Source: an archaeon
GTDB lineage: Archaea > Micrarchaeota > Micrarchaeia > Norongarragalinales > UBA97
Assembly: GCA_020057405.1 (NCBI GenBank)
Contig: JAGVFW010000007.1
Location: 1-59,371, forward strand
DNA length: 59,371 nt
Direction of reading: 5' to 3'
This document shows, in pieces, positions 3,801-59,371 of the stretch. Made by a program: the position numbers and the translations under genes. Below the pieces are notes generated by a model. That model did not search any database. It saw only the letters and a program-made list of their open reading frames with translations, and was not told the DNA's origin. How positions within the stretch are numbered: the stretch's first letter is position 1; each line of letters starts with the position of its first letter.

Positions 3801-6800
3801 TCCCAGAGGACCGCGCTTCGGTTAAACGTCGTGTTAAGCAGCCGCAGGTCGGAACTTGTGGACATGTTGATGTCGAAGTAGCCCGCGTCGCAGCCCGCGG
3901 TGCAGTAGTTGATGGTGCCGTTTATGAACTGGTTACCAAGCGCGTTGTCCGCCTTGATGCCGCCGGCCCGCGATGTTATTGTCGTATTGGTGAAGTTAGT
4001 TGCATAGGCGTCCTGCATGTACACGCCGTACGCACCAGTGCCGTTTGTGGAGATGGCGTTGCCGGTGAAGTTGATGTCGGCCGGCGGGAAGGTTCCCGTC
4101 TGTCCGTATATGCCGTGTGCCGAAGTGCCGTTAGTCAGGATGTTGTTGTAGGAATAGTTCACGAACTGCTGGGCGCTTCCAAGCGAAGTTAGGTAAATGC
4201 CATAGCTGCTGGTGCCGAAAGTCTTGAGGTAGTTGTAGCTGATGTTGTTGTTGGTGCCGTCCTGCCCGTGGAGGGCAGTGGCAGACGTTCCGTTGGTGAT
4301 GAGGATGTTGTATTCCGCCACGTTGTCGCTGTTGCCGCTGGTGCATTTGGACAGGGCCAGCGCGTTTGCGGAGGAGCCGTTGGTGTAAATCGTGTTGTTG
4401 GAGAGTATGCCGTTAGTTGACCCGCAGTCTGAAATTCCGTTTGACGAGGTGCCGTTGGTGACAATCGTGTTTTCGGTGATTATTGGCGTGCTTTGGCTAC
4501 TTGCTATTGAAATGCCGTTTGAGTTGTCTCCCCACGTCGTTATTGAATTGCGGGTGACGTTGAACATCATGCCGACCGAAGAACTGCCAGTGGCGATGCC
4601 GGGTGCGCTTGCTCCCCGCGTTACGATGGTGTTACCCGTGACGTTCGCCTTCGCGTTTGTCGGGAAGAGTATGCCGTTTGCGGAGGAGCCGTTGGTGGTA
4701 ATCGTGTTGCTGATTATCCAGTTGTTCAGTGAGCTTATGCCGACGTTTATTCCGACCGCGTTCGAGCCGTTGGTGTAAAGCGTGTTCGCGGTGATGTTGG
4801 TAGAGTTGGTTGTCCTAAGGCCGATTGCGGGCGAACGCGAGCCGTTTGCAGTAAGCGTGTTTGCGAAAATGGTGACCGAACTGGAGTTGGTGATGTTTAG
4901 CGCACCTGCAGTCGTGCCGTTGGTGACAACCGTGTTTAGCGTGATGTTGAGCGTACGGGTATTGTTGAACAGGATGCCAATCGAGCTGGCGCCGTTTGTC
5001 AAAATCGTGTTGTTGCGTATCGTCAGGTTAATCGCGATGTTGTTTCCCGTGCCGTTCAAGTAGATGGCGCTTGAGTTCTGGCTGGTTCCGTTCTGGACGA
5101 ACGTGCACCCTCGGATGGTGATGTTGTCAAAGCCCTCGGCGCTGAAGTTCACGCCCAAGCCGATGCCGGTCTGGGCGTAGAAGACGTTGTACCCCAGGCA
5201 GTCTAGCGTGACATTGGGGCTGGTGATGGTAAAGCAGTTGGCGTCTGAAGCTACGTCGGTTGTGAGCGTGTAGAGCGAGTTTTCAGCCTCCTCTGCCCCC
5301 CGATAGGCAAGCGCTCCGCAGGTTTGTGATGTTGCGGGAGTGACCTGCGTCAGGGCCACCCAGACGGTCTGAGACCGGTTGACTGTCGCGTTAGTGCCGT
5401 TAAACTGCCACGTGCCCTGCGAGTAGTTGGTTGCGGAGAAGTTGTGCGGCGTGTAAGTGACGTTGGCCGTGTTGTTGCCGAAGAATTGCGTTACGACCCA
5501 CCAGGGAGTTGCGCCGTCAGCGCCCGCGACGAGGTTGAGGAACATCGGGTTTGTCGTCGCGCTCGTCGCGTTTGTGACATTGACGTTGGCGCCGTTGATT
5601 GGCGTGGAATTCGTCCACGTTACGTTCGCCCGCGCGTACCACTGGATGGTCAGGTTGTTTGCCAATCCGGCTCCCCAGTTGATGGCGCTTTGGTTGATTG
5701 TCGTGTTAAGCAGCCGCAGGTCCGAGTTTCCAGTCAGGTTTACGTCAAAGTAGTTCGCGTCGCAGCCGGCAGTGCAGTAGTTGATGGTGCCGTTGACGAA
5801 CTGGTTGGCGTACGAGCCGTTTGACGCAATTGCTCCGGCCCGCGATGTTATCGTGGTGTTTGTGAAGTTGACTGCCGTTGCCCTCTCGAGCAGGATGCCG
5901 TAAGCGCCAGTTCCGTTGGTTGAGATTGCGTTGCCGGTGAAGTTTATTATCCCGACCGTGCCGCTTGAGGCGGCCACGTAAATGCCGTGCGCGTAAGAGT
6001 CGTTGGTCAGGATGTTGTTGTAGGAGAAGTTGACGAAACCCTGCGTGGTTGTCCGAATGACGTAAATTCCGTAGCTTTGGCTGCCGAAAGTCTTGATGTA
6101 ATTGTAGCTGACGTTCACTCCGCTTCCGTCGGATTCGTAAATTCCCTGGGAGCCGGTCGCGTTTAGCTTGATTTGGTTGCCCTCGATTGCCATGAGCGTG
6201 TTGCCGGAGATGCTTGTGAAAGACTTGATTGCTATGGCGTTCGTGCCGTTTCCTTGGATGGTGTTGTTGTTTATGATTCCTCCATCCAATTGTGCAACCG
6301 AGATTCCAATCGAGCCCGTGTTGTTGAGGAAGATTGTGTTTTCAGTAATGTACTTGACTGTCGTAGTGCCGCCGCCGCTGATGCCGGTTTCACTTGTGCC
6401 CAACAACGTAATTCGGTTACCAGTTATGTTGCCTGCCACGTTGATTCCGCCCGCGGTGGCACCCCGGAGTACTATGGTGTTCGAAGTAGCATTTACGACG
6501 CCAGTGTAAGCCCCAGAAATTGCCGAGCCACCCGAGCCATTTGTGCTAATTACGTTTCCTGTTACGAACATCGTGGTGCCCGTGTTTCCATTCGATATGG
6601 TAATTGCCGCGGCGCCGGTTGAGTTGATGTCGATAGTGTTTCGTGATATGTTAACGGCCCCGAAGCCTACCGTGCCTCCGGCCGATATGTATATTCCGTA
6701 GATGGTAGGCGAATTCGAGCCGTTTATCCGGATTGTGTTGCCGGTGATGTTTTCGCCAGTGGCATACATGCCGAATTGAATTCCGGTGGATGTATTCGAC

Positions 6801-9800
6801 ACTATGCTGTTGCCGGTGATGTTCGTGTAGTTGTTGCTGGTTTTGAAATAGATGGGGACTGCGTTTGTCGCGTTTGTCGTCATCACGTTGGTTGCAATCC
6901 AGATGTAGGATGAGTTTGAATAGTTTAGTGCAACGGCCCCCCAGCCGGTTGTCGTGAAAATGTTGCCCGTGACGTTCGTCTGGTTTGAATTTTCAATCTG
7001 AACGCCGACCGACTGGAGCGAGTTGGTCCTGAACGAGTTGTTGTAGATTGTTATGTTCTTTGAGGCATCTGTTGGCGTGCCGTTGAAGTAAATGCCGGTC
7101 GAGTTGGCCGATGTGGAGTTCTCCCAGAAGTTGCATCCCTGCACAGTGATGTTGTCAAGGCCGGTTGTGCTGAAGTTGGCCCCCATGCCGGTTCCCGATT
7201 GAGCGTAGTAGACGTTGTATCCGAGGCAATCGAGCGTAATGTTCGGAGTGGTGAAGGTAAAGCAATTGCCGGCCGAGGCAACGTCGTTTGATAGGGTGTA
7301 GAGTGAGTTTAGGCCGCGTTCGGCGCCGTGGTAGGCTAGGGCGCCGCAGGAGGAGGGCGTGGTTTGCGAGAGGGTAATCCAGACGGTCATGCTCGCATTC
7401 ATGGTGGCGTTCGTATTGTTCAACTGCCACGCGGACTGCGAGTAGTTCACGACCGTGAAGTTGTGGGGCGTGTAGCTGAAGTTGGCCGTGTTGTTGCCTT
7501 CAAACTGCGTAACTAGCGACCAGGCGGTCGCGCCGTCGGAACCGACGAGAAGGTTCGCGTGCATTTGGTTTCCTGCAGCGCTTGTGGCATTGGTGATGTT
7601 TACCCGGGCCCCGACTATGGGTGTGTAGTTGGTCCAGGTGACGTTCGCCCGCGCGTACCACCGGATGGTCAGGTTGTTCTTTGTGCCGGAGCCCCAGCTT
7701 ACTGCACTCTGGTTGAATGTTGCGTTCACCGCGGTTAGGTTTGAATCGTATTCAAGGATGAAGTCGGCGTAAGTCGATGCGCATGCGCCGCACCTTATTA
7801 TCGAGTCCATTTCCAGCGTGTTGTTGCGGGAGCTCCTTGTGGAGTTGACTCCGCCGGAGTTGGCTTGCATGGTGTTCAAGCTAGAGTTGGTGCCGTTGCT
7901 TGCGAAGAGCAGGAGTGCAAAGGCAGCTGAACCCGTGGCGTTGAGCGTGTTTGATCTGATTATCGCGAAATTGGAGTCGCGGGCGTAGAGCGCCGAGCTT
8001 TCGGCGCCGTAGGTTCTAACGCGGTTAAACGTGATGTTGTTGAGTGGCGCTGTCGTCAGGTTGATGCCGCTGGAGTTGACGCCGGTCGTGTTTATCGTGT
8101 TGCCAATCACTACGTTGCCGGTTGCAGAACTCCCGAGCAGCACGATGCCGGAGGACAGGTTGCCGGTGGTGTTGATTGTGTTGGACTGGAGGATGTTGTT
8201 GTTGCCTTGAACTAGGATGCCGTGGCCGAGCGTGCCGGTGGTGTTTATTGTGTTGAAGCGGATGGTGTTGTTGTTAGCGCTGGTCCTCAGCCATATTGGA
8301 TGCCCTATGTTTCCAAAAGCAGGGCTCGCCGTGTCGAAAACAAGGTTGTATTCAAAAGTGTTGTTGATGACGGCCTGCCCGCCGGTTTGATATCCGTTTG
8401 TCGAGCCTCCGGTAACGGTAATGTTATTGGCGCGGAATGTGTTGCCGTAAGCGGTGCCGCCGTAGCCGATTGCCGAATAGCCTGCAAACAAGTCCATGAT
8501 GTTGTTGGACGCGAAGAACGTGTTGTGGACCGCCTCCAGCTCAAGGGCGACCTCGCCGGCTATGTGCGTTACGTTGTTGCTCGACATGTTCGAGTTTGAA
8601 ACGAAGGTCATGAGGACGTTGAACGTGCGGAAGGGCCAGTCGCCGTTGGAGACCAGCGTGTTGTTGTATATTGTGATGTTGTTGGAGTAGTCGCCGGAAG
8701 CCCCGGTTATGTTGAGGGCGGTCGTAATATTCATTACACTGCTGTTGGCATCGAAGATGCAGCCCCTTATCGTGACATTGTCAAGGCCCAATGTGCTGAA
8801 GTTGACGCCGGAGCCGTTCAGCGTCTGGGCGTACCTTATCCTGTGCCCAAGGCAGTCTAGCGTGACATTGTTTCCTGCGATGGTGTAGCACGTGCCTGCT
8901 GCAGTGAGGTCGGCGCCGACGGTGTAAAGGGTGTTCCAGCCGTCAGTGGCTCCGGTGTAGTAAAGGGGTCCGCAATTCGTGGTGGGCACTGAAGACAGCG
9001 TAATCCATACCGTCTGGGTCGAGGTGACGCTCGCGTTGGTGGAGTTGAAGTTGCTTATCGTCCCTGCCGTGAGGTTGTAGGCGGTAAAGTTGTGCGGCGT
9101 GTAAGTGACGTTGGCCGTGCTGTTTCCAATAAACTCGGTTACGAGGAGCCATCCGGTGGCGCCGGTTGAGTCCGCCGGCTGGTTGAAGTGCAGCGGGTTT
9201 GTGGCCGGGTTCGTCGCGTTGGTGACATTGACGAAGGCGCCGACTATCGGCGTGGAGTTAGTCCAAGTCACATTCGCGCGGGCGTACCATTTCTGCGTTA
9301 TGGCATTGGCGGTGCCGAATTGGTAGCTTATTTTCTTCGGCGGAATTTCGGTGTTGATCTGGGTGGTGGTGTTCGTCAGGGTGGCGTTTGAATCAAGCGT
9401 TACGGCTACGCTGACTCCGCTTGTAATGCTCCCGATTTTTATCGTGTCGTTGGTGAACGTGCTCAGTCTCGAGTTGGTGAGGTTTAGCATAGTGGACTTT
9501 CCGTTGCCGTCAATGACATCGTATGACGAGGCGGTGTAGTTGCTTCCGTTTAAGTAAAGCGAGTAGGGCCCGATTGCCCCAGGCCTGAACGTGTTGTGCG
9601 AGAGGGTGTTGTTCAGCGAGTTGTAGAAGTGCGCGGCGTGGGCTTCGCCGGTGCCGGCGGTTGTGACTGTGTTGTTGGTGTAGTTGCCGTAGTGGCTTGC
9701 GGAGGCGTAAATGCCCATCGCTTGGGCGCCGTAGGTGTAAACTGCGTTTTCGCTCACGTTGCTGCCATCTGCAGCTCCAACTCCGGAGTTGCCGTCGATG

Positions 9801-12800
9801 TAGACGCCGTGGGCGGTAGTGCCGCTGGTGTTGACCGCATTGTCAGTCACGTTGGCCCAGTTCGCGGCGGCTAGATAGATGCCGTGGGAAGTCGAACCCG
9901 TGGTGTTGACGGAATTTCTCCACACGACCGTGCTGTCAACGGTTCCGCCTTGGTTTTCTATCCTGATGCCGGTGCCGGTTGCGCCGAAAGTGGAGACTAC
10001 GTTGCTCTGGATTGTGTTGCTGTTGCAGTTGCCGCCGTCGCTTGCGCAACTAACCCCTATGCCATAGCCCGTGGTTGCGTTGTTTTGGACCAGGTTGTTT
10101 TCAATTATGTTGTTTTGTACCGCGGGACCGCCGAATGCGTAAATCCTGATGCCGGCGAGGCTCGAGGCGTTTGCGTATACGGTGTTTCGAGACACCAGCT
10201 GCGAGCTGGAATCGCCTATTTGGATTCCATCCCCGCTCTGCGTTCTGACCGTGTTGAAGCTGAAGTTGTTAACGGTGCTGAGGGAATTTCCGTAAATTCC
10301 GTAGGCGATGCTTCCGTTGGTGCCTATAGTGTTGAAGTCAACCGTGTTGCTGCCGGCCTGATAGAGTTGTATGCCATAACTGCTGGTGCCGTTGGTATAC
10401 ACTGTGTTTGATGTGACGTTGCTGGCAAACGAGCTGGACAGCAAGATGCCGTTTGAGGCTTCACTGATAGAGCCGTTGATGTTTATGGTGTTGAGCGCAA
10501 TCCTCTCAAGGTAGCCCTGGTGGATGTAGGCTGCCGTCGAGGTGTTCAAAATGAAGACATTGGACGAGAGGTTGGTGTTGTTCGTCGTTTGCAGGTAAAC
10601 ACCGTATGCCCCTGTCGCGTTTGTGGTAATCGTGTTGTTGGAGATTGTAAGCGAGCTTGAGTTGGTGACGTTGACTGCATGAGCGGAGGCGCCGTTGGTG
10701 TAGATTGAGCTTTTGGATATGTTGACCGTAAGCGTGTTATTCAGGTAGATTCCCGACGCGCCGGCTCCGTTTGTTACAATGCTGTTGTTGAATAGGGTTA
10801 GGTTTGTCGCCTTGTTCGCGGCGGTGCCGTTAAAGTAGAGTGCTGGGGAGTTGCTGGCTGCCGAGTTGTTGCTGATGAAGTTACACCCCCGTATCGTGAC
10901 GTTGTCGAGGCCGGTTGTGCTGAAGTTGACGCCCATGCCCGGACCGGCCTGGCCGTAGTAGACGCGGTGGCCAAGGCAATCGAGAGTTACGTTCGAAGTT
11001 GTGATTGTAAAGCAGTTGGCGGATGCAGCGATGTCGGCACTAAGGGTGTAAAGCGAGTTGAGGCCCTCCTCGGTTCCCCTGTAGGCAAGCGAGTCGCAGT
11101 TGGTGTGCGTTATGGACGACATCGTAATCCAGGCGGTCTGGCTGGAGTTGATTGTCGCGTTGGTGGAGTTGAAGTTGCTTATCGCGCCTGATGTGAGGTT
11201 GTAGGCAGTGAAGTTGTGGGGTGTGAAGCTCGTGTTGACGGTGTTGTTGCCGAAGAATTGCGTTACGGTCCACCACGGCGTTGCGCCGTCAGTACCTGCA
11301 ACTAGGTTGGCAAACATCGGGTTTGTCGCCGGATTCGTCGCGTTAGTGATGTTGACTAGCGCGCCGACTATTGGCGTGGAGTTCGTCCAGGTGACGTTCG
11401 CGCGGGCGTACCAGTCGAGCGTCAGGTTGTTTCCAGTACCCGCTCCCCACGTCACTGCGCTTCGGTTGAAGGTGGTGTTAAGCAGCCGCAGGCCGGAATT
11501 GCCTGACAGGTTGAGGTCAAAGTAGGCGGCGTCACAGCCTGAAGTGCAGGGTGTTATTGAGCCGTTGACGAACTGGATTGAGGCCGAGCCGTTGACCGCA
11601 AGCGCCCCTCCGCGAGAAGCTATCGTGGTGTTTGTGAAGTTGACTGAAGTCGCCTTCTCGATGAGCACTCCGTAAGCGCCTGTTCCGTTTGTCAAAATAG
11701 TGTTGCCGGTAAAGTTCACTTTTGCAACTACGCTTGAGATGTAAATGCCGTGGGCGTAGGAGCCGTTTGTCAGGATGTTGTTATAGGAGAAGTTTACGAA
11801 ATTCTGCGTGGTGGTTCCCGACACGTAAATTCCGTAACCCTGGGTGCCGGATGTCTTGATGTAGTTGAAGCTTACATTCACGTTTGTGCCGTCAACCTCC
11901 CTTATGCCGACGGCGCTCGTGCCGTTTGAGATAATTACGTTGTTGTCAATGCGGTTGTTCGCATTACCGCCAAGGGCCCAACTAACGCTGATTCCATTGT
12001 TTGACGTGCTGTTAGTGTAGATTGTGTTGTTCGAGATGATGACGTTGCTAATTGCGCTCAGGGAAATTCCGTTTCCCGAGCCGTTAATTACGATTGTATT
12101 TCCAGAAATCCAGCCGCCTGCCATGCCGTTTGATGAGGCAAAACCGCTGCCGCCGCCCCAGGTTGTTATCGAGTTTCCCGTGACATTTACCGAAGCAGCT
12201 GCAGATATTCCCGCAGCCGTGCCTCTGGCAACTAGCGTGTTGCCCGTGATGTTGGCGTTGGCGGTTGATGCAACGCTAATCGGGTTTCCCGAGCTATTTG
12301 TCCGCAGCGTGTTGCTTTGGATGAATAGGTTTTGGTTTGAGCCAGAGAAAATTACTGCATATGCCGCAGTCCCGTTCAGGTCAATCGTGTTTTCGGAGAC
12401 GTTTAGGAAGCCAAAGGCCGTGACGGTTTGAATGCCGTTTGACGAAGTTCCATTTGTTACTATTGTGTTCTTGGAAACGTTTTGGTTTACCGCATAGGCG
12501 GCGAAGTAAATGCCGGTTGAGGTGTTGGTATTGATTACGTTGCTCGTAATATTGGAGAAGTTGCTGTTGAGCACGAAAATACCGTAGGCGTTTGAGGCGT
12601 TTGTCGTCATCACGTTAGTTGCAATCCACGAGTAGGTGGAGTTGGTCAGGTTGATGGCATGGGCTGTTGAGCCGTTTGCGGTAAAAGTGTTGCCAGTGAT
12701 GTTCGTCTGGTTGGCTGTTGCAACCTGCACGCCGACTGACCGAAGCGAGTTGGTCCGAAACGAGTTGTTGTAGATTGTGAGGTTGAGTGCCAGCGTGCTA

Positions 12801-15800
12801 GGGCTGCCGTTGAAGAAAATTCCGCTTGAGGCGGTTGACGCAGTTCCGTTCTCCCAGAAGTTGCACCCGCGGACGGTGATGTTGTCGAGGCCGGTTGTGC
12901 TGAAGTTGGCCCCCATGCCCGGGCCGGCTTGGGCGTAGAAGATGTTGTACCCGCCGCAGTCAAGGGTGACGTTCGAGGTGGTGAAGGCAAAGCAGTTGGC
13001 GTTGTTTGCCACGCTCGTGTTTAGTTGGTAGAGTGAATTCCACCCGTCCTGCGCTCCGCGGTAGGAGAGCGCCTGGCAACCGGAAATTGCGTATGCGTTG
13101 GTCGTGGTGAGCGTGAAGATTGGCGTCACGTTCATCGCGATTTCATTGTCCCAGACGTAAACTCTCCAGCGGAGTGTCGCGCCCGGCGTGGAGTTTAGCA
13201 CTGCAGTCATGTTCGTCTGGTTGACTGTGCCGTTGAGGGCGGCGTTTACCGTCACGTTGTAGAACGTGCCGTTGCCGTTGTCAAACTCAAACGAGTAGTT
13301 CATCAGCTGGATGTCGTCCGTCCAGTTGACGATGAACTTTGTCGACTGGCCGGCTTGAGCCCCATCAGTGCGGTTGTTCGACCACTGGGGCGGCTGGGCG
13401 GTGGCGTAGCTGACGTCGAGGTACGGCCTCCAGCCGGGCGTGGCGTGGTCGCCGGCCGCCCACGAGCCGTTTAGGGAGCCGGCTCCGCTGCCGCTTACGT
13501 TGAAGCCGACTTTGAACAGGTCGTCGCCTGCAGCAACGCTACTGATGTTCAATAACGCATTGGCGTTCATGGTGAAGTTAACGAGTCCGCTTGCGGTTTT
13601 GCAGAGGGTGCTCTGGTTGTACAGCGTGCCGTTGTTGATGTCGGCCCACAGCAGCGTGTTGCCGGCAGTGTTGTCGCCGTAGGCACTCACATTCGCGTTA
13701 AGCTCGTTGAACGCGCAGCGTGGCGCCTGAGTCGTTGGGTTGAGATAAATGGTTATGTTAGCTGCCGAGATGCTCGCGCCGCTGGGTATGGTGCTGACGT
13801 TGAAGACCAGGAACGCAAGAAAGTTTGATTCTTCAGACGCGCCGCAGGCAAGGGACCAAACATCGAACCCATTCAAATTGGTGTTAGTGTGCCTGATGTA
13901 GGCGCTGGCGTCGCAGGCTATGCCGATGTGGCCGTCGGAAGTGCCGGTGGTGTTGGTGTAGAAGCGGACGGTCGTCGGCTGTGAGGTGGGGTACGCGCCG
14001 TGGTACTGCAGCTGGACTGTTTGGCTTGAGGTGAGGGAGAAGTTAGTCGTATTATAGTAAGTCAGGTTGAACCACGAGAAGTTGTAGGGCGTGTAGTTGA
14101 TGTTGGTTGCGGCGTTGCCGATTGATTGCGTGATGAGTAGCCAGCTTGTGAGGCCGCTTGAGTCGGTCACCTGGTTTAGGTACATCGGGTTGGTGTTGAG
14201 GCCCGAGGCGTTTGAGACATTCACGCGCGCGCCGGGGATGAGCGTGCCGTTGTCAAAGCTCGCGTTCGCCCGCACGTACCACTGGATTGTCAGGTTGTTG
14301 CCACTGCCAGCTCCCCACGCGACTACCGACTGCGAGAAAGTCGTGTTCTTCACCGTCAGGTTCGAGCTGTCGCCAAGGAACAAGTCATCAGTGAGGCTTG
14401 CGCAGCCGGAACTGCAGGTGTTGATGACGCTATTGTTCATCAAAGTCAGGCGCGAGTTGCTCGCGTTGAAGCCCGCCTGCTTGTAGGTGACAGTCAGGTT
14501 CTCGAATGTCGTGTAGTTGGTCGCGTTGAGGAACACGCCTGTCGACGTGGTTGCCGAGACTGTTGCCACGTCGCTTGTAATCGTGGCGTTAGTGCTGTTG
14601 ACTAAGATTAGGCCGTGGGAAGTTGCACCCGACGTTGTGTAGTTGTTTGCAGATGCAGTCAAGCCCGCAATGTCAGTTAGCACGGCGGCGTGCGAGCTGG
14701 ATGTCGTCGTCATCACCGCGTTATTAAGCAGCGTGAGGTTGCCCGCCGGGTTGCCCGTGCCCGAGCCGTTAAGGTAGATTGCGGGCGAGCCGGTGCTCGA
14801 CGAGTTTTGGAAGAACTTGCAGTTCTTTATCGTCACGTTGTCCCAGCCCGTGGCGCTGAAGTTGATGCCAACGCCGGGGTTGCTCTGGCCGTAGAAGATG
14901 GAATAACCTGCGCAGTCTAAAGTCACGTTCGCCGAGCCAATGGTGAGGCAGTTGCTAGCGCCGAACATGCTCTGGTTTACACTGTAAAGCGAGTTCCATC
15001 CCGCGCCACTCGTAGGGCCGTTGTATGCAACCGTTTGGCAACTGCCGACCGTGCCGCCGCCCTCGGGCGCGCCTGCAGTGTAGCGTACGATGAGCCTTGG
15101 TTTCCAGGCGGCGGTTGCGCTTTCACTTGAGGAGATTAAGCCGATTACCATGGTGTTTCCGTCCTGGCTTGAGTTGATGCCGAGCCGGAACAAGTTGTTG
15201 CCCGTCAGGACGCTTTGTATGTCCGTTAGCGCCTGTGCGGTGAGCGTGACGTTCTTCAGGCCGGTTGAGGTGCACCAGTTACTGTAATTGTAGGCCGTGC
15301 CGTTGTTCATGTCAGCAAAGAATGCCGCGTTGCCGGCTGCATTGTCGGCGTAGTCGCTTGCATTGGCGTCAAGGGGCATGATTCCGCAGTTGTTATTGCC
15401 AACCCCGGTTTCCACGTAGGCGGTCAGGTTTACCTCGTTTATTGTTGACGTGCTCGGAATGTAGGTGGTGTTGAAGATTATCCATGCCCGATAGTTGACG
15501 GGGCCGGTATCACAGGGCGGCACCATCGTGCTCTTGCCGATGCTCAGCGTGCTTCCGGAAGTGGTGCGCGTGTAGGTGGGGCACTCGTCGTCGCCGATGT
15601 GCCCGTCGCTGGTGCTCGTCTGGTTGATGTAGAGCCCTATCGTGGGGTCGATTGTGACAGGGTACTGGCGGCCCGCGTCTGCAAGCCAAATTGGGTCGGC
15701 GTTCACGGTGATGCGCTTGCCGTTGCCCGAGAGCGTCATCGTCACTGCGTTTGAGAATGCGCCTGCGGCGTCTGTCATGAATGGTGCTTGCGCCACGAAG

Positions 15801-52649: not shown

Positions 52650-52889
52650 AAACTCACGACGAAAGTATAACAGAGTAATAACTGCTTATTAAGTGTGGCT
52701 TTCCGTTGGGAAAGTGCTCTCCCCCTGCACTTAGTCCTGGTCTAAGTTCACTCCCCCTGCACTGTCTCCTGGTCTCAGAGCGCAAGCCCGACCGGTTGCT
52801 CTGCGCAGATGTGCTGCATTTGGCATTTTAAAGCTCTCCAGCAATAGGTTCTTGTCGAGAGTTCTTGCGTCAATCAACTTGGTGAAAAA
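52650..52889. other. Intergenic region carrying tRNA-Leu-end repeats
   Basis: This 240-nt stretch holds two tandem CTCCCCCTGCA-type repeats (52719-52778) and a TATA-like CATTTTAAAG near 52829 for the following gene. Otherwise nothing recognised. Confidence 0.6.
52719..52778 (+). repeat. Tandem pair of tRNA-Leu 3'-end repeats (copies A1, A2)
   Basis: CTCCCCCTGCA (52719-52729) is followed by CTTAGTCCTGGTCTAAG, an imperfect palindrome; 32 nt later CTCCCCCTGCA (52751-52761) is followed by CTGTCTCCTGGTCTCAG. The same string, CTCCCCCTGCA then CTTAGACCTGGTCTAG, is the 3' end and flank of tRNA-Leu at 59160-59186. Confidence 0.8.
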
Positions 52890-53465
52890 ATGCCTGCACG
52901 TTTTTGGGGAAAGCCAGAAAATGCGCCTGCGCATTTGAATTTGTTTCCTCAAAATTCCGCCTGGTTTTCGCACCACCTGCATTCTTTTTCGGAAGCATCA
53001 AGAATACCGCGAGAAGGACTGCTTTCTCAAAAGGAAGCTAAACGACTTGGAATGTCAATTGGTATGACTAATTGGTGGACTGCACATCCGGATAATGATA
53101 ATATACTCCTCTATGAACTCCGCCATCCGTTGGAACGGTTGGAAAGCCAAGATAAGTTTGGAAAGATTCGTGTTCTAATGTGGGGAGACACGCCCACTAC
53201 GCGTGATGAATCTGGCTCATTAGTAAGCAAAACAAGAATTCCTGCAGATTCCGTTTGCGCATTTATTGTTCCAGACAAAGAGAAGCTCAACCCCGATTCA
53301 AACGAACTATCGTTTTTTTACACCGCTCCAAAAAGCAAAGAAAAAGGAGAACTCGCACCTCAAGAAAAAGAAGAGCTCAGGTCCTTTTTGAATGCCGCTA
53401 AAGAACAAGGTATCCCCGTCTACAGCCGCGATGGGGAAAGATTGTGGCCAAAAATCAAAAAGTAG
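52890..53465 (+). CDS. Hypothetical protein in a tRNA-Leu-repeat-bounded unit
   Basis: This 191-aa hydrophilic protein has no family I recognise. The middle contains LYELRHPLERLES and a Trp/Gly-rich stretch (SIGMTNWWTAHPDND); the C-terminus is Lys/Glu-rich. There is no membrane segment. The ATG has GGTGA 5 nt upstream. Its DNA is visibly AT-richer than neighbouring genes and uses AAA/GAA/AAT codons more, a sign of foreign origin. It lies between repeat copies A and B. Confidence 0.7.
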   Translation: MPARFWGKPENAPAHLNLFPQNSAWFSHHLHSFSEASRIPREGLLSQKEAKRLGMSIGMTNWWTAHPDNDNILLYELRHPLERLESQDKFGKIRVLMWGDTPTTRDESGSLVSKTRIPADSVCAFIVPDKEKLNPDSNELSFFYTAPKSKEKGELAPQEKEELRSFLNAAKEQGIPVYSRDGERLWPKIKK

Positions 53466-53540
53466 CACTTAGAGTCCAGGTCTCCGCTTACTCCCCCTGC
53501 ATAGGTCCACTTCTAGACTACGCCTAAGTGCACTTCTAGG
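53465..53540 (+). repeat. tRNA-Leu-end repeat, copy B
   Basis: GCACTTAGAGTCCAGGTCTC, then CTCCCCCTGCA (53491-53501), then GGTCCACTTCTAGACTACGCCTAAGTGCAC. The last part recurs at 54505-54533 with few changes, so copies B and C bracket the nucleotidyltransferase gene. Confidence 0.75.
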
Positions 53541-53644
53541 GATTTGAACATCCCATCTTGTTTTCACGCTGGGCTCAAGCTCAAGAACTATTTAAAGACT
53601 GCACCAGCATCGCCTTCAAATACTTACTTTTTCTATTTCGTAAT

Positions 53645-54460
53645 ATGAAGCGTTCGGCAGTAATCACAAACTCTCACGCATTGCCTGTGTTTGAATCATT
53701 GAAAGCCGCTTCCAAGCGCCTTCAGGTTCCAATTTTTCTTGGTGGAGGAAGTTTGCGAGGCTATCATCTGAGAGCATATCACGGCATTACTGCGCCGGAA
53801 CGCGACTATGACGTCTATGTTGCAAGTAATTTGCACGGGATACTGAAACAATTGAAAACCGAGTTTAAGGATGCAAGAATAACTCGTCACAATCTCACGG
53901 ACGGGATGCCTACGGTCGAAGTGGTGCTTCCGAATAACCTCGTCTTTCATTTTGCCACAATCCGTGGAAACGCCAACCTTTACGGGAAAGCTGAGATTGA
54001 GGTCAAAGCCCTGCTGAAAAGCCATGCCGTTACTGGTGCGGACTTCACGGCTAATGCAATGTACTTGGATGTTAACGACCTTAATGCCCCTTCGAGAGTA
54101 TTCGATCCATTTAACGGAAGGGTCGATATCAAGCGAAAAATTATCCGTGTCGTAAGTCCGTCGGTTTTCTCTTCACCGGGTTCTGAACAAGCATTACTCC
54201 GCGCAGCTAGGATGGCCCAGACAATGAAGGGCGAGTTTTCTGACGATACTGCAAGACTGATGAAAGAGAGTGCAGCTAGTGTCACTCGAGTACCGAACTA
54301 TCGGATTAGGCGAGAACTTGAAGCATTACTGAAAGGAGACGACCCGAGGCGGTGGCTTAAAGTGCTTTGGAATTCTGACGTCCTAAAACACCTGTTTCCA
54401 TCAATGACTGCACCTACCCGAGCACAAGTTAGAAGGGAATTGGAAAAACTTCCAAAGTAA
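53645..54460 (+). CDS. Poly(A)-polymerase/CCA-type nucleotidyltransferase-like protein
   Basis: This protein of 271 aa has the class II nucleotidyltransferase pattern: GGGSLRGYHLRAYHG, then RDYDVYVAS giving the catalytic Asp pair, a VEVVLPNNLVFHFATIRG strand pair, and SEQALLRAARMAQTMKGEF like the RNA-binding helix of bacterial CCA/poly(A) polymerases. The usual C-terminal domains are reduced. Native archaeal CCA-adding enzymes are class I, so this is probably foreign. The ATG at 53645 lies after TATA-like elements near 53593 or 53617; codons upstream are unlikely to be used. The DNA is AT-rich, and repeats B and C bracket the gene. Confidence 0.78.
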   Translation: MKRSAVITNSHALPVFESLKAASKRLQVPIFLGGGSLRGYHLRAYHGITAPERDYDVYVASNLHGILKQLKTEFKDARITRHNLTDGMPTVEVVLPNNLVFHFATIRGNANLYGKAEIEVKALLKSHAVTGADFTANAMYLDVNDLNAPSRVFDPFNGRVDIKRKIIRVVSPSVFSSPGSEQALLRAARMAQTMKGEFSDDTARLMKESAASVTRVPNYRIRRELEALLKGDDPRRWLKVLWNSDVLKHLFPSMTAPTRAQVRRELEKLPK

Positions 54461-54504
54461 AATTGAGGCTAGTTATAGATTGCGACTCAATCGTGTCCCG
54501 CAAA

Positions 54505-54543
54505 GTCCACTTCTAGACCCAGCCTAAGCGCACTCCCCCTGCA
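54505..54543 (+). repeat. tRNA-Leu-end repeat, copy C
   Basis: GTCCACTTCTAGACCCAGCCTAAGCGCA followed by CTCCCCCTGCA (54533-54543). The first 28 nt match copy B at 53506-53533; the last 11 match the tRNA-Leu 3' end. Confidence 0.75.
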
Positions 54544-54645
54544 TCTTGTATCTTTCTAGAGTCTTGACTTTTTCTCCTCGTCAATCCCCTAGAGGCTTCT
54601 CGTCGCTCGCCTAAGAAAGACAGACTCTAGTAAGAAGCTAGAGTT

Positions 54646-54667
54646 ACTCCCCCTAAAGCCCTTAGGC
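54646..54667 (+). repeat. Truncated tRNA-Leu-end repeat, copy D
   Basis: ACTCCCCCT followed by AAAGCCCTTAGG; it shares the CTCCCCCT core and a CTTAG element but lacks TGCA. It marks the right edge of the AT-rich block. Confidence 0.45.
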
Positions 54668-59044: not shown

Positions 59045-59170
59045 GCAGGGGTTGCCGAGTCTGGCCAAAGGCGCGAGCCTCAAGGTCTCTAAAATCATCG
59101 CGCCATTGACTTGAGGAGATGAGCAAGCTCGTCTCTCAGGAGTTCGGGGGTTCAAATCCCTCCCCCTGCA
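59045..59170 (+). tRNA. tRNA-Leu(CAA) with a 41-nt canonical intron
   Basis: Acceptor GCAGGGG/CCCCTGC, anticodon stem CGAGC/GCTCG, loop CTCAAGA with anticodon CAA, a long variable arm, T arm GGGGG-TTCAAAT-CCCTC, discriminator A. The intron is at 59085-59125, after base 37. The intron's CTTGAG (59110-59115) pairs with the exon CTCAAG, as in the archaeal bulge-helix-bulge. Its 3' end CTCCCCCTGCA is the repeat seen at 52.7-54.7 kb. Confidence 0.93.
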
Positions 59171-59371
59171 CTTAGACCTGGTCTAGAAGCAGACCTTGTC
59201 TCCTACGACTTGTTTTCATATCCAGAGACACAATTTCCCAGAATATAACCTATGCCCCACTTAGACGATGAATGTCTTTCACGATAACTATGGCACACTT
59301 TCCACCTAATGTTCTGGGTGGTGGAAAGTGGGTGTTTTGGAGAAGAAGCGTTTCTTCGTAAATCATTTGAA
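59171..59371. other. Region downstream of tRNA-Leu to window end
   Basis: It starts CTTAGACCTGGTCTAG, the palindrome also following repeat copy A1 at 52730, then AT-richer sequence. No convincing coding frame is complete before the edge. The composition resembles the 52.9-54.5 kb block. Confidence 0.55.
59296..59330. repeat. Perfect 11-bp inverted repeat
   Basis: CACTTTCCACC (59296-59306) and GGTGGAAAGTG (59320-59330) are exact inverse complements with a 13-nt loop. It may be a transcript hairpin or a protein-binding site in the material downstream of tRNA-Leu. Confidence 0.6.

Follow-up and report, generated by a model that had tools for sequence, protein, structure and literature searches.

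Single genes that stand between copies of a tRNA gene end raise the question of whether they form a cassette array and, if so, of what kind. We address it for a 59,371-nucleotide stretch of Micrarchaeota DNA (the window; contig C16 of the source genome G000, hereafter the host), in which the string CTCCCCCTGCA, the 3′ end of a tRNA-Leu gene at the right end of the window, recurs around an orphan gene and a nucleotidyltransferase gene. An earlier note had read this locus as an integron-like array whose recombination sites derive from a tRNA end. Paired arms around the repeat, arrays that start at tRNA-Leu genes, an insertion between uvrA and uvrC, cassettes shared between genomes and a recombinase adjoining the site in relatives support that reading, and we consider it very likely that these arrays are tandem accretions of integrase-less single-gene integrative elements at a tRNA-Leu end, moved in trans. 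The best reading is that the cassettes resemble integron cassettes in their working, yet the arrays are not integrons; as a refinement of mechanism, each unit resembles a one-time integrative element with an attachment site divided between its two ends and not a cassette with one attC.

The repeat is far too frequent to be accidental. All five copies claimed for the window, at 52719, 52751, 53491, 54533 and 59160, are exact, against 0.04 expected, and none of 100 shuffled sequences held five or more. The host genome (1.22 Mb, 17 contigs, ~91% complete) contains 18 copies, mostly in arrays, compared with none of a reversed control pattern, and these counts exclude chance or a scattered repeat. 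The motif is thus not confined to the window, where it had been noticed: contig C1 has two copies, C2 one, C6 six, C11 three in an array and one alone, and C16 the five already given. The C2 copy (C2:37374) has no arms and is probably due to chance. The repeat did not turn out to be a genome-wide one unrelated to gene boundaries, and the AT-richness ascribed to the cassettes is real, with a guanine-plus-cytosine (GC) content of 46.7% in the array against 55.5% in the window, a value equally low in 0.7% of segments of the same size.

A single layout, left arm - CTCCCCC - TGCA - right arm, accounts for 39 sites or junctions in the host and its relatives. Both arms are imperfect palindromes, oriented toward one another on either side of the 7-bp center, and a 7-bp overlap between inverted arms is the layout given for tyrosine-recombinase cores in PMC8371274. 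At least two arm types exist and are mixed within single sites. Type 1 has a left arm of about CTTCTAGACCnnGTCTAAGnGCA and a right side of TGCACTTAGACCtgGTCTAGAAG; type 2 has a left arm of about CAGACTCTAGn7CTAGAGTcA and a right arm of about TGCAtcttgTATCTTTCTAGAGTCT. Hybrids occur in both senses, left type 1 with right type 2 at 54533 of the window and at one site of G003, and left type 2 with right type 1 at C6:79610 and at another G003 site. At tRNA-Leu genes the tRNA itself replaces the left arm, giving GTTCAAATCC-CTCCCCC-TGCA. The tRNA in place of a left arm and the mixing of arm types are what tandem accretion predicts, in the order tRNA-core-R1...L1-core-R2...L2-core. The array in the window and the tRNA gene to its right comprise the following features:

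52719 to 52729, forward strand: core 1, CTCCCCCTGCA, exact match; the first recognized site of the array.
52730 to 52750, forward strand: fused right and left arm, CTTAGTCCTGGTCTAAGTTCA, of a 32-bp unit with no gene (sequence and repeat families).
52751 to 52761, forward strand: core 2, CTCCCCCTGCA, exact match.
52762 to 52780, forward strand: right arm of the orphan cassette, CTGTCTCCTGGTCTCAGAG (sequence and site alignment).
52890 to 53465, forward strand: cassette gene 1, orphan protein of 191 aa, 44% GC, with no match in Pfam, NCBIfam or PADLOC.
53466 to 53490, forward strand: left arm of the orphan cassette, CACTTAGAGTCCAGGTCTCCGCTTA (site alignment).
53491 to 53501, forward strand: core 3, CTCCCCCTGCA, exact match.
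53505 to 53554, reverse strand: inverted site-like stretch, GTTCAAATCC-CTAGAAG-TGCA-CTTAGGCGTAGTCTAGAAG (sequence; arm match with 2 mismatches).
53645 to 54460, forward strand: cassette gene 2, class II nucleotidyltransferase of 271 aa, 47% GC (PF01743, 2.1e-9; PF12627, 3e-12).
54505 to 54532, forward strand: left arm of type 1, CTTCTAGACCCAGCCTAAGCGCA, 87% identical to a C6 left arm over 78 nt.
54533 to 54543, forward strand: core 4, CTCCCCCTGCA, exact match; hybrid site, left type 1 and right type 2 by site alignment.
54544 to 54565, forward strand: right arm of type 2, TCTTGTATCTTTCTAGAGTCTT; the same arm occurs at C11 and in G028.
54622 to 54646, forward strand: left arm of type 2, AGACTCTAGTAAGAAGCTAGAGTTA, a perfect match to the type 2 pattern, closing a geneless unit of ~113 bp.
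54647 to 54654, forward strand: truncated core, CTCCCCC plus T, followed by TAAAGCC; right end of the array (sequence).
59045 to 59170, forward strand: intron-bearing tRNA-Leu (Rfam tRNA, 37.8 bits), whose 3′ end at 59160 to 59170 is the core.
59171 to 59189, forward strand: right arm of type 1 after the tRNA, CTTAGACCTGGTCTAGAAG; a 119-nt match to the start of a C1 cassette has 92% identity.

Most details previously read from these letters held. The palindrome is present as CTTAGTCCTGGTCTAAG from 52730, the element shared by the stretches at 53505 and 54505 extends over 30 nt with 87% identity, and the truncated copy is real, with CTCCCCC at 54647-54653 and TAAAGCC in place of TGCA. This truncated core probably represents the distal half of a target other than a tRNA, one with a match to CTCCCCCT alone. 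The inverted stretch, GTTCAAATCC-CTAGAAG-TGCACTTAGGCGTAGTCTAGAAG, combines a left half resembling the tRNA end with a right arm of type 1 around a 7-bp center of CTAGAAG instead of CTCCCCC. To the left of 52719 the sequence is similar to that on the left side of a C1 site, which makes the left limit of the array uncertain; this sequence may be another left arm, of a third type, and mark a further element upstream.

Both genes named in the earlier reading do lie singly between cores. The nucleotidyltransferase has a bacterial-type class II head (CCA-adding and poly(A) polymerase family), for which solved relatives are known, and it has no relative among the 300 Micrarchaeota genomes compared beside the host. 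The orphan protein has one there, in G028, which adjoins a site and shows 24% full-length identity (E = 1.9e-5 in this small search). Elsewhere in the host, cassettes encode VapBC-like pairs (an AbrB/MazE-type antitoxin with a PIN protein), two Fic proteins, a TauE-type permease, a large secreted protein, an ArsR-type regulator, a GNAT acetyltransferase, further orphans and a small, unassigned gene pair of RelBE-like appearance; those of relatives encode a ribbon-helix-helix/DUF3368 pair and PIN, ParE, HicA, Fic, AHSA1 and AAA/DUF4143 proteins. Across 15 arrays, 30 units were delimited, with lengths from 32 to 3694 bp and a median of 827 bp; toxin-antitoxin, Fic, acetyltransferase and orphan genes are frequent among them, and genes occupy both strands relative to the site.

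The tRNA at 59045-59170 scores above the Rfam gathering score of 29; ARAGORN made no call there by default because the gene has an intron, and its intron mode labels it Val. The existence of a tRNA thus stands, and its proposed identity as tRNA-Leu(CAA) is plausible from its sequence and from the tRNA-Leu(CAA) of a relative. From 59171 onward a further cassette begins and is cut off by the end of the contig. Cassettes of type 1 share a conserved stretch of ~60-110 nt past the right arm (window 59171-59371; L019 7231-7340; L021 12690-12784; L048 7535-7640) containing GAGACACAATT, half of an 18-bp palindrome that is also found left of left arms; this stretch could possibly hold accessory binding sites or a promoter.

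As the earlier note had suggested, related genomes were searched for the motif together with its arms. A model built from 18 two-arm sites (R1) found 18 sites in the host and matched 21 of 29 genomes of its Micrarchaeota order, at a threshold of E up to 0.05 per genome; the weaker matches may include chance ones, and some of the sites had themselves built the model. The wider set comprised the 300 other Micrarchaeota genomes (301 with the host); the genomes in both sets are incomplete, and strains close to the host are not among them. Per-genome counts may also include binning error, since G003:C1 and G017:C53 have an identical stretch in common although binned in different families. This identical stretch (L046 and L050) carries a tRNA-Leu gene with an AHSA1 cassette, and one of the two bins is probably wrong. 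Among GTDB species genomes the exact site had four matches only, two in Micrarchaeota and one each in Bdellovibrionales and Candidimonas, the latter two being within the number estimated for chance.

Arrays or cassettes are anchored exactly at a tRNA-Leu 3′ end in the host, G001, G005 (three cassettes) and G010, where the tRNA is followed by a RelE-like cassette, a Fic cassette and a third one, and sites containing the intact tRNA-Leu end occur on C11 and C16 and in G001, G005, G010, G011 and others. In seven relatives (G003, G004, G005, G011, G013, G014 and G023) uvrC lies within ~210 bp after uvrA; in the host the two genes are parted by the C1 array and a VapBC pair. Cassettes are also shared between families. 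A Fic gene is present in 35 of the 301 genomes, flanked by sites in G000, G010 and G028 (families f1, f4 and f7), near a site in G001, adjoining tRNA-Leu in G146 and G148 and adjoining an integrase of the clade described below in G126 and G133, and the arm types around the Fic cassette vary between genomes. The small RelBE-like pair is common to the host and an array of G003. Relatives did not show the same genes and repeats in the same place.

Contig C6 of the host (L021) offers two further observations. At 5235-5621, a VapC-like gene has its stop codon within the right arm of a site, the arm doubling as coding sequence, and a piece of this VapC-like C-terminal end is found again at 11799-11835. 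Two array sites, at 8900-8925 and 13248-13279, carry remnants of a tRNA T-arm (GTTCAAA / GTTCAAATC) and no intact tRNA gene, which suggests that this array moved from, or was built on, a lost tRNA-Leu end.

The earlier note had also suggested looking for a tyrosine recombinase elsewhere in the genome. One was found in the host, on C17, with no site nearby; it shares 33% identity with the cognate clade and is not a close member of it, so its role as the obvious partner of the arrays is unsupported. That clade, found in relatives, consists of recombinases that are ~400 aa long and carry a zinc ribbon at the C terminus. Of 25 clade members, 10 have a core no more than 250 bp upstream of the gene start, compared with 2 of 338 other segments (p = 2e-11), and a 5.7-kb island of G011 extends from tRNA-Leu to a site and has a clade integrase at its end. 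The clade probably has several targets, because the other 15 members lack a recognizable core and some have different arms. Upstream of the integrases at L057 (G014), L078 (G003 C5) and L123 (G126) are palindromic arms of other sequence, with CTCCCCCTGCA absent, and by their letters these suggest sister systems with other targets. Searches of IMG/VR returned no relative of the core plus right-arm pattern or of the cognate integrase, leaving a viral origin unsupported.

We propose that the recombinase would recognize a pair of half-sites in inverted orientation (about GTCTAAGnGCA and TGCACTTAGAC), with the 7-bp CTCCCCC between them. A circular element could insert at the tRNA-Leu 3′ end because that end carries CTCCCCC and TGCA; the tRNA would keep its own end and gain the right arm of the element, the left arm and core forming the far boundary. 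A following element would enter the same core, producing a row of units that each run from right arm to left arm. Most units carry one gene or a toxin-antitoxin pair and no integrase, and the integrase of a fuller element would insert, excise or shuffle them in trans. Arrays without an intact tRNA (window, C1 and C6) may have arisen by insertion at secondary sites matching the core, or beside tRNA remnants. The exact positions of strand exchange, action in trans and current mobility are inferred.

Several findings weigh against tandem accretion of mobile cassettes. For the array in the window, neither a left boundary nor an empty site is confirmed, and a search for an empty site by way of FTR1 met close relatives that lack this gene or have a remote homologue only. 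No close cognate integrase was found in the ~91% complete host genome, 15 of the 25 clade integrases have no recognizable core upstream, and the uvrA-uvrC pair is not universal, because uvrA has another neighbor in G001. The missing integrase would also fit old accretions of integrative elements that have lost their integrases and are immobile, kept by selection for their cargo or by addiction modules. Decayed or truncated sites such as that at 54647 and the geneless units of 32 and ~113 bp point the same way, and archaeal tandem integrations with lost integrases are described in PMC8371274. Such remains do not readily account for a core that is invariant while the arms vary, for cassettes common to families with different arms and neighbors, or for tiny single-gene units that recur across many genomes, and we regard this explanation as unlikely.

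Much less probable still is a true integron or a cluster of attC sites lacking integron-integrases (CALIN), in which single-stranded attC hairpins are recombined by an IntI-type integrase. Other archaea have integrons (PMC9668308), the units here are likewise short and single-gene with toxin-antitoxin pairs and orphans, and the arms are mutually inverted, pairing slightly better within a site than between sites (p = 0.02). However, none of the 18 two-arm sites contains the attC boxes GTTRRRY or RYYYAAC, RNAalifold found no consensus pairs across them, and the TIGR02249 scores of four cognate integrases are 37-48 bits, far below the cut-off of 265 for integron integrases. The lack of recognizable attC sites was therefore correctly noted at the outset, and motifs, fold and integrase score lead us to reject attC membership. 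The hybrid sites, which combine arms unrelated in sequence, and a core that is the end of a tRNA gene also argue against integrons. The palindromic arms, the intergenic position and the identity with a tRNA 3′ end could instead indicate terminators or tRNA-like processing signals that are merely intergenic, but two unrelated arm types and their hybrids around an invariant core, cassette genes on either strand relative to the site, an integrase adjoining the site in relatives and the absence of a shared fold make such regulatory repeats the least credible explanation of all.

Tandem accretion at a tRNA-Leu end has parallels in known systems. Tycheposons and pdif modules are small cargo units moved by tyrosine recombinases, the former with tRNA targets and the latter with single genes between Xer sites; both have other hosts, sites and recombinases and are set apart by description. 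The proposed mechanism agrees with that of the Dehalococcoides ssrA islands, tandem units between copies of an RNA-gene 3′ end, some without integration genes, for which accretion of cis-mobilizable elements was proposed (PMC3146451). Like them, the arrays are tandem integrase-less units bounded by left and right sites and by copies of an RNA-gene end; unlike those many-gene islands, which use a serine recombinase, they involve a tyrosine recombinase, units of one gene and ~0.8 kb, two-arm sites of several types and arrays that also lie away from the RNA gene. Tandem and secondary-site integration is reported for SGI1 (PMC2297512). With integrons, including archaeal ones (PMC9668308), the arrays share short, often single-gene cassettes with toxin-antitoxin and orphan cargo, and with CALINs an integrase often missing from the array; they differ in that they lack attC boxes, the attC fold and an IntI-type integrase, have a tRNA-Leu end in the place of attI, carry genes on both strands and split their sites between adjacent units. 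The reviews PMC8371274 and PMC6563490 describe archaeal tRNA-targeting elements with a tyrosine recombinase, a tRNA target, a 7-bp overlap and tandem integrations, as here; those are plasmids, proviruses and multigene elements, and the passages found make no mention of Micrarchaeota or of single-gene cassette arrays.

The larger proposal, to which we give even chances, is that Micrarchaeota have a dedicated gene-capture system of an evolutionary origin independent of integrons, with a tRNA-Leu platform, split-site cassettes and a clade-specific zinc-ribbon recombinase that would shuffle them within and between genomes. The open-access literature yielded no previous account of such arrays in Micrarchaeota; subscription papers and preprints lay mostly outside the search, and a prior description is possible. 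If true, the proposal would mean that integron-like arrays can also arise by a second route, from a tRNA, and that their layout converges on that of bacterial integrons. With the site model, cassette genes, of which many are orphans, can be sought directly throughout the phylum. Micrarchaeota genomes are very small, and modular cassettes would help explain how they gain and swap toxin-antitoxin and accessory genes.
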